Shown here one piece after another: positions 265-1,455 of a stretch of DNA of 10,019 nt. Position 1 is the stretch's first letter. Each line of letters opens with the position of its first letter. Where the stretch lies: NCBI GenBank assembly GCA_031273145.1, contig JAISSL010000061.1:1-10019 (forward strand), written 5' to 3'. This DNA comes from Zoogloeaceae bacterium. GTDB lineage: Bacteria; Pseudomonadota; Gammaproteobacteria; Burkholderiales; Rhodocyclaceae. The position numbers and the translations under genes are program-made. The notes below the pieces were generated by a model. It was not told where the DNA came from, searched no databases, and saw nothing but the letters and a program-made list of their open reading frames with translations.

Positions 265-1455
265 ATGTTCTCCGTTCTCCGTTCTCCGTTCTCCGTTCTC
301 CGTTCTCCGTTCTCCGTTCTCCGTTCTCCGTTCTCCGTCATCATTGCGGCCTGCGTGCTGATGAGCGCGTGCGCTACGCAAAAACCGGGGGAAGCATTCA
401 TAAAGAAGGATGATCGCATCGTAGGGTTGGAGGCGGGGAATTGCAAAAAGGTTAAAAAGGATAATGCGTCACCGCAGGACACGGTGCTTGCCTGTAAGGG
501 CGGCGGTCATCATGGTTACAAGTCTGAGGAAAAGAAGGCGGCAGACGTAAGAGCGCATCGCACAGACATTGATAGCAGAATCCAGAGAGCCTGTTGGAAA
601 TCAGGGGGAAAGTATTATGGTGAACTCTGTGTCCTTCCTAAGAAGGATGGGCTTTCTGTGCAAAGAATCACTGTTACCAGCGAAGGTCCAGGAGATTCCC
701 GCGCTATGTATATACTTCGATCTTTGGCTCAGCAGCGTCCTGCCAAGTGGACACTTGAAACTCTCCCTCCAGTTTTGAATGCTGTCGTTGCGTTACCAAT
801 AGCCATCGTTATGATACCAGTGACCATCATTGCAATTCCGGTAATGCTCGTGACAGGTCCGATAGTTGATTACACAAATCATACCGTTTACATAGCCGCC
901 CGCGATGATACTCAAGATTATCTGGCTGAACAGCAAAGGCAACGTGATTGGGAAGCGGACAGACCAAGGCGGGAAGCTGAGGAAGCTGAACGTCGGCAAA
1001 GAGAGCTTGAAGCGCAAGCAAGGCGGGAAGCAGAGGGACGCACAAGACTGGAAGCTGAACGGCTTGAAGCGGAAGCAAGACAGAATCGAGAAAATCAGGC
1101 GGCGCGAACGGCTGCGGCTGAGTGGAATCGCGCGTCCGCAAGTCTGCGAAATTCCCTGAAGCCGGGGGATCAGGTTTATCTGATTCTGGAAAGAAAATCT
1201 GGTCGCGCTCAAGGGTTGCCTTTTGAAGTGCCGGCAATGGTTATCAATGTCAAGCCGCCTCTGGCCGAGGTTCAGTTTTCAGAATTCCTGGATGTTGCAT
1301 CCATACGCCGGTGGGAAAAATCTACCGACATCTATGCCAAAGCCCCGGAAATCTTTTTCTGTAAGGGAGGGCGTTGGCAAAGCGCGTGGAGTACGTACAC
1401 AAAAACAAAAGACTGCCTTCGCACGCGAGAGGAAATAGAAGCACGCGAACGTTAG
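265..1455 (+). CDS. Putative phase-variable lipoprotein with coiled-coil region, unknown function
   Basis: A 396-residue protein of no family I recognise. Residues 1-24 are the repeating heptapeptide FSVLRSP, encoded by a 7-bp DNA repeat. A hydrophobic stretch and a lipobox follow (LMSAC, with lipidated Cys36), so it should be a membrane-anchored lipoprotein. Residues about 170-202 form a second long hydrophobic stretch with regularly spaced prolines that could cross or dip into a membrane. Residues about 214-293 are rich in Glu, Arg, Gln and Ala and look like a charged coiled coil. The C-terminal 100 residues look globular, with KPGDQVYLI near their start. The start at 265 rests on AGGA nine bases upstream and on the signal peptide. 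A short GC-rich hairpin without a T-run (1457-1476) follows the stop. The gene faces the response regulator across a repeat-filled gap. What is seen: signal peptide, lipobox, repeat. What is inferred: expression switches with repeat number. Confidence 0.75.
   Translation: MFSVLRSPFSVLRSPFSVLRSPFSVIIAACVLMSACATQKPGEAFIKKDDRIVGLEAGNCKKVKKDNASPQDTVLACKGGGHHGYKSEEKKAADVRAHRTDIDSRIQRACWKSGGKYYGELCVLPKKDGLSVQRITVTSEGPGDSRAMYILRSLAQQRPAKWTLETLPPVLNAVVALPIAIVMIPVTIIAIPVMLVTGPIVDYTNHTVYIAARDDTQDYLAEQQRQRDWEADRPRREAEEAERRQRELEAQARREAEGRTRLEAERLEAEARQNRENQAARTAAAEWNRASASLRNSLKPGDQVYLILERKSGRAQGLPFEVPAMVINVKPPLAEVQFSEFLDVASIRRWEKSTDIYAKAPEIFFCKGGRWQSAWSTYTKTKDCLRTREEIEARER
267..336 (+). repeat. Heptanucleotide tandem repeat (GTTCTCC)x10 inside a coding region
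   Basis: Ten perfect, uninterrupted copies of GTTCTCC. The first base of copy one is the G of the start ATG and the tract ends just before GTCATCATT. The unit is 7 bases, so each gained or lost copy shifts the downstream frame. Ten copies put the ATG at 265 in frame with the lipoprotein. The other two frames stop at 359-361 (TGA) and 411-413 (TGA). All three forward frames through the tract read the same heptapeptide cycle, so the tract itself never introduces a stop. Perfect identity of all copies suggests recent expansion or continuing slippage. Seven-base slippage tracts controlling surface proteins are known, for example in the promoters of the Haemophilus influenzae hmw adhesin genes. 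Confidence 0.95.

Follow-up and report, generated by a model that had tools for sequence, protein, structure and literature searches.

A GTTCTCC repeat on the start codons of five paralogous, predicted lipoprotein genes suggests an Opa-like phase-variation system in a Zoogloeaceae bacterium

Can a seven-base repeat that begins within the start codon of a putative lipoprotein gene act as a translational ON/OFF switch, and does it concern one gene only? This question is raised by a stretch of 10,019 nucleotides ("the window") from a Zoogloeaceae bacterium (assembly GCA_031273145.1, contig JAISSL010000061.1, hereafter C201), for which a preliminary description based on the letters alone had proposed a single phase-variable locus. 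Our analysis indicates that this genome probably encodes at least five paralogous lipoproteins and gates the translation of each through a separate GTTCTCC tract whose first letter is the G of the ATG, which would amount to an Opa-like phase-variation system. Slippage of the tracts, initiation at the ATG, export of the products, their exposure on the surface and any benefit to the cell are components of this reading that we infer.

Results and discussion

The tract and the reading frames of the window gene

The window gene contains ten perfect GTTCTCC copies (267–336) followed by GT at 337–338, the first letter of the tract being the G of the start codon (ATG, 265–267). Tandem Repeats Finder reported a period of 7, 10.3 copies and 100% matches at 267–338. 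A three-copy pattern search of the window, permitting up to two mismatches, gave eight matches, all of them with zero mismatches, compared to 0.00 expected from 200 dinucleotide-preserving shuffles; the ten-copy tract is not a product of chance. The ATG frame extends over 396 codons and ends at 1455, and the two alternative frames stop after 31 codons (359–361) and 48 codons (411–413). When 0–18 copies were modelled on paper, the full frame was open only with 1, 4, 7, 10, 13 and 16 copies. The preliminary description had claimed a perfect tract from the G of the start codon, a full lipoprotein frame in the sequenced state, these two early stops and a rule of 3n+1 copies, and all of this was borne out. 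Two hallmarks of phase variation are thus present, namely a pure in-frame tandem repeat whose unit is not a multiple of three, and a single frame giving the full product next to frames that stop early, the latter in all four complete paralogs described below. Further in-frame ATG or TTG codons are located at −36, −51, −72 and −153 relative to the ATG at 265, and translation starting from them would still cross the tract.

A family of five loci

The draft genome comprises 1.98 Mb in 294 contigs and is 86% complete. Scanning it for three copies of GTTCTCC returned 35 matches in five places only, and the scan for two copies returned 40 matches in the identical five places. The arrays are not dispersed at unrelated intergenic sites: all of them (5/5) belong to one gene family, and the genome holds no extra two-copy match. 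Every array occurs in the context TATAATG, with the tract beginning on that G, in paralogous genes located on different contigs (C201, ten copies; C19, 14; C32, six; C41, ten; C224, five), so that tract length varies between 5 and 14 copies among the paralogs. C224, C41 and C32 code for paralogs of the window protein. The C19 gene is truncated by the contig end 46 nt 3′ of the tract, and its remnant matches the family profile with an E-value of 1.8e-12 at profile positions 1–27 of 325, which are largely repeat. The perfect copies are followed by GTCATC in C201 and C32, by GTTCTCA in C19 and C224 and by GTTCTTA in C41, a degenerate unit at the edge of the tract. Upstream of the ATG, C201 and C19 share 113/120 nt (94%), yet they are four perfect copies apart; the nine other paralog pairs showed 61–87% upstream identity over 103–119 aligned positions. 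As the same tract recurs at the same position in four further genes, we are dealing with a family of loci. The candidate switch of the preliminary description therefore stands, and gains support from four genes that share tract and placement and differ in copy number and ON/OFF state, whereas its view of a single locus has to be replaced by a family of five.

As assembled, the ATG frame covers 396 codons in C201, which is ON, and 43, 23, 48 and 21 codons in C19, C32, C41 and C224, respectively, which are OFF. The body frames of the OFF genes C224, C41 and C32 are stop-free over 309–319 codons, and the body opens with every third copy number in C201, C32, C41 and C224 alike, the four paralogs that are complete.

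Based on this pattern, switching of the five loci would proceed by slipped-strand mispairing that adds or removes 7-bp units. Because seven is not a multiple of three, each gain or loss of one unit would bring the body into the ATG frame or take it out again. One copy number in three would yield a lipoprotein precursor with FSVLRSP repeats at the front of its signal peptide, and the remaining copy numbers only short dead products. If the five loci switched independently and recombination also exchanged N- and C-terminal parts, many lipoprotein combinations could then arise within a clonal population.

Upstream regions

A promoter-like pair lies 60–69 nt 5′ of the tract in the paralogs (TTGCCA-17-CAAAAT in C201 and C19, TTGCCC-16-TAGAAT in C32, TTGCCA-17-CAAAGT in C41 and TTGACA-17-CATCAT in C224). 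It achieves the top score within the upstream 120 nt for C201 and C19 (9/12 matches) and for C224 (TTGACA, 10/12), ties for best in C32 and ranks second in C41, where it is outscored by a pair built on the TATAAT at the ATG; a pair of the latter type also accounts for the tie in C32. All five genes (5/5) possess a Shine–Dalgarno-like motif 7–9 nt 5′ of the ATG, which reads AGGA in 4/5 and AGGAG in C32.

Evolution of the paralogs

Repeat copies are perfect in 45/45 cases across the five loci. Pairwise amino-acid identity of the bodies, compared among C201, C224, C41 and C32 with the incomplete C19 left out, was 29–71% over 76–301 locally aligned codons. Such perfect repeats beside diverged bodies would be explained if units were continually added and removed. 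In blocks of 30 codons, the DNA identity between C201 and C41 was 89–100% in the last four blocks and 39–63% earlier, and that between C201 and C224 fell along the gene, from an initial 94% to 51% in the final block. The paralogs are clearly mosaics of each other. Simple estimates of the ratio of nonsynonymous to synonymous substitution rates (dN/dS) were 0.64 for C201–C224, 0.58 for C201–C41 and 0.55 for C224–C41; the three C32 pairs gave 0.24, 0.32 (dS >2.5, saturated) and one undefined value. In a crude simulation with 500 runs each, bodies stayed stop-free in 0.6–2.0% at 0.10 substitutions per site, in 10–15% at 0.05 and in 38–42% at 0.02. The OFF genes are therefore probably not long dead; a recent death is possible.

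Alternative explanations

Several points weigh against a set of translational switches. One ON locus out of five is close to the third that random frames would give and by itself is no proof, copy number rests on one assembled length per locus, and the C19 body lies beyond the end of its contig. In addition, the dN/dS values of the two closest pairs (0.64 and 0.58) point to weak constraint. Together with the OFF state of 4/5 loci and the near absence of the family from the other genomes examined, these values would suit a relic, with a microsatellite that no longer acts and a paralog family in decay whose OFF copies are dead. We nevertheless regard such a relic as quite improbable, given that three complete OFF bodies are stop-free, a state that few simulated bodies retained at 0.10 substitutions per site, and that long neglect would not leave perfect arrays. 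Somewhat easier to entertain, though still unlikely, is an arrangement in which the window copy alone is expressed and the others serve as silent donors for gene conversion, the tract acting mainly as shared 5′ homology. That only C201 is ON as assembled would agree with this, as would the mosaic bodies, with C201 resembling C41 at the end and C224 at the beginning. However, each OFF copy retains a promoter-like pair, a Shine–Dalgarno motif and an ATG, all of which a donor would not need, and the distant relative P0006 is likewise in frame.

Translation might also bypass the ATG. Body-frame start codons are found 5′ of the tract in C32 (TTG at −7), C224 (GTG at −7 and TTG at −58) and C19 (TTG at −67), so these three genes might leak, which also counts against strict switching. 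If such starts generally rescued translation, copy number would alter nothing but the leader. This seems very unlikely to us, since the −7 codons of C32 and C224 nearly abut the Shine–Dalgarno motif, and C41 has a body-frame stop at −2 and therefore no alternative upstream start. A last objection is that the TATAAT abutting the ATG, invariant in 5/5 loci and part of the best-scoring pair in C41 and of a tied one in C32, could be a −10 box; transcription would then start in the tract, its copies would set the promoter or 5′ leader length, and translation would begin further down, for instance at the ATG at 361. We give this the least credence of all, as a conserved −35 element at proper spacing is lacking, whereas TTGCCA, TTGACA or TTGCCC further up is common to all five loci. 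A start at 361 would leave just Met-Ser-Ala ahead of the cysteine, and C32, C41 and C224 have no ATG at the matching position. Moreover, the predicted unpaired state of the Shine–Dalgarno motif is nearly constant from 1 to 16 copies (0.51–0.55 in C201; the largest trend, in C19, runs from 0.51 to 0.41). We therefore continue to favour translational switching at five loci.

The predicted lipoproteins and their surroundings

The window protein matched no Pfam family at cut-off. Judged by eye, it has a hydrophobic stretch ending in a lipobox cysteine, and MSAC, LSAC or LGGC occurs at the matching place in C201, C224, C32, C41 and P0006. Because the −3 residue of the window lipobox is Met and an I-A-A-C (Cys30) stands just ahead of M-S-A-C, the lipidated cysteine of the window protein is not certain. 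On our reading, the family proteins would be exported, lipidated and surface-exposed. In the structure model a long helix is present and a large barrel absent; this is a poor model with a mean predicted local distance difference test score (pLDDT) of 61.7, reaching 85–97 over residues 221–280. All feature coordinates are compiled in Table 1.

Table 1. Coordinates of the features described for the window gene and its upstream region
Feature	Position	Strand	Basis
Promoter-like pair TTGCCA (198–203), 17 bp, CAAAAT (221–226)	198–226	+	Consensus match only
Shine–Dalgarno-like AGGA, 9 nt 5′ of ATG	252–255	+	AGGA/AGGAG in 5/5 paralogs
TATAAT overlapping the start codon	261–266	+	Invariant in alignment of five upstream regions
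Predicted lipoprotein gene, 396 codons, ON as assembled	265–1455	+	Reading frame; family of paralogs
Ten perfect GTTCTCC copies, then GT at 337–338; translated as FSVLRSP repeats	267–336	+	
Likely lipobox M-S-A-C, lipidated Cys at 370–372 (Cys36)	361–372	+	By eye
Predicted long helix/coiled-coil, residues 216–297	910–1155	+	Structure model
Putative Tudor/SH3-like small beta barrel at the C-terminus, approximately residues 290–361	1132–1347	+	

Gene neighbourhoods differ among C19, C32, C41 and C224. The C19 locus adjoins rpoA, which was checked, and further neighbours that we take to be ribosomal-protein genes; C32 is presumably flanked by a transporter-like and a ComM-like gene, C41 by a reductase-like gene, and C224 by NADH-dehydrogenase-like and Nudix-like genes. 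Downstream of the window gene, positions 1501–1883 harbour palindromic repeats resembling repetitive extragenic palindromic (REP) elements, with the core ATTCCCGCCTACGCGGGAAT; five copies are in direct orientation, and one inverted pair is perfect over 34 nt. Similar sequence is also found 3′ of C41 and C32. At 8735–9674, on the minus strand, the window encodes a Fic domain protein (PF02661) adjoining a VbhA-type antitoxin gene (PF18495).

Distribution of the repeat and of the protein family

GTTCTCC arrays were found in none of 59 relatives (three copies), 19 other genomes of the genus (two copies), 394 other genomes of the family (four copies) and 368 other genomes of the class (four copies); the set of 59 overlaps the other sets, and the family and class sets share the window's own genome only. 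The window-family protein was likewise absent from all 59 relatives. The family profile matched in 3/198 other genomes of the family, covering positions 203–299 (two) and 135–299 (one) of 325; these distant proteins have ordinary signal peptides by eye and no four-copy array. No match was obtained in 398 other genomes of the order, with up to five candidates scored per genome. Two contigs from different genera, L057 (G140) and L058 (G229), carry apparently one and the same 3,288-base locus with a distant C-terminal homolog, and the identical long translations look like recent transfer or contamination.

In a large protein set, at least seven proteins match among the 8,000 best candidates scored. 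By sequence, P0001 corresponds to C224 and P0004 to C41, both annotated as shorter proteins that begin inside the body of these OFF genes. P0002, P0003, P0005 and P0006 are metagenome relatives, of which the distant P0006 carries the repeat leader in frame, and P0007 has the repeat alone in common. The protein sequences of P0003 and P0005 start at an internal MSAC, which would fit OFF alleles; other causes are possible.

The same heptamer as a leader elsewhere

Residues 1–40 of the window protein retrieved 50 proteins with E-values up to 1, a set biased toward a signal-peptide picture because the query includes the lipobox. The repeat lies inside the first 60 residues in 26/50, and an automatic test detected a hydrophobic stretch or lipobox after it in 14/50. 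Twelve remain after removal of P0006, a family member, and P0031, which is not exported and whose Pfam domains we take to be of the Mur-ligase type; P0009 and P0026 fell just below the test threshold and are signal-peptide-like by eye. Leader-repeat examples include a Treponema SUMF1-type protein (P0027), the lipoprotein-like P0018, P0021, P0024, P0030 and P0037, and also P0012 and P0034. These last two are similar proteins that both begin with MFSVLRSP and have 14,572 as longest contig; they are perhaps neighbours on one contig, and might represent a second paralog system with its tract at the ATG. The leader MNSLKQHL followed by FSVLRSP repeats is common to P0010, P0018, P0032, P0042 and P0046, comprising at least three protein kinds, as if one cassette had been placed ahead of different exported proteins; P0042 and P0046 failed the test for a hydrophobic stretch or lipobox.

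A contig scan for an ATG with three copies yielded four contigs. In one of them, L042 from a Fimbriiglobus sp. metagenome-assembled genome, nine GTTCTCC copies start from the G of an ATG (1543–1605, minus strand), with AGGAGG 5 nt 5′ of the ATG and a signal-peptide-like stretch 3′ of the tract; the gene is OFF as assembled, and the tract is the sole three-copy array in that genome as examined. The other three contigs, from genomes with 9 to 41 three-copy matches spread across several contigs, showed no evident signal peptide after the array in the ATG frame. One Planctomycetota genome and two of Bacteroidetes (G420, G421 and G422) contain 39, 41 and 9 three-copy matches on both strands and in many places, which sets them apart from the window's genome.

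GTTCTCC repeats read FSVLRSP, free of stops, in each of the three forward frames. Since such a peptide would be tolerated ahead of signal peptides, GTTCTCC may be a recurrent and perhaps portable leader repeat that unrelated bacteria have repeatedly adopted to switch exported proteins ON and OFF, with the five-gene family as the clearest multi-gene case. We put this wider idea forward as a tentative and rather doubtful one, also because 24/50 of the retrieved proteins have the repeat in another place or in too weak a form, for example inside PF03099 or PF01136 proteins.

Comparison with known systems

The repeat strings and FSVLRSPFSVLRSP were nowhere found in our literature search, and the covered part of the literature on heptanucleotide phase variation, which leaves out most subscription papers, yielded no description of a GTTCTCC lipoprotein switch. 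PMC2996958 concerns, in its accessible text, a 25-residue protein repeat and hence a different thing.

Heptamers as such are already known, according to the accessible portions of the studies cited here, both within reading frames and in promoters. Neisseria pglE contains a genic CAAACAC heptamer in 5–34 copies (PMC5953494) and thus resembles the window gene in having a 7-bp repeat within the reading frame. However, pglE is a single pilin-glycosylation gene with another unit and seemingly not the leader repeat of a paralog family. In Haemophilus influenzae, heptamers in the hmw1A and hmw2A promoters tune the level of expression (PMC2651432, PMC11475388); 7-bp repeats, a surface protein and variable copy number are shared features, but the window repeat lies in the coding frame. 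Xanthomonas (GGGAATC) and Nostoc (GGGGA(C/T)T) likewise have dispersed heptamers in perfect arrays at multiple genome sites. As far as described in the accessible text (PMC4692102), those are intergenic and spread over many gene classes, whereas the arrays reported here (5/5) all mark the starts of genes from a single family.

The closest parallel is offered by the opa genes of Neisseria, for which the accessible sources describe CTCTT/CTTCT coding repeats in the leader-peptide region, up to 12 frame-switched paralogs and recombination (PMC5354566, PMC5953494, PMC11475388). The five loci share with opa the leader-coding repeat, a predicted frame switching per paralog, conserved and variable parts and recombination. 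They differ in their unit, a 7-bp GTTCTCC on the start codon instead of a CTCTT pentamer, and in their product, a predicted coiled-coil lipoprotein for which our searches gave no sequence link to Opa, and because unit and protein differ we do not consider the family a member of opa. New are the unit, its placement on the start codon and the protein family, and possibly the recurrence in unrelated bacteria. Gene callers hide OFF loci, as seen for P0001 and P0004, and comparable systems may therefore be overlooked in metagenomes; GTTCTCC before the signal peptides of unrelated proteins provides a concrete search sequence. If our reading is true, one bacterium could display shifting mixtures of surface proteins, by means of an opa-like system outside Neisseria in which the repeat is another one and the protein is unrelated.
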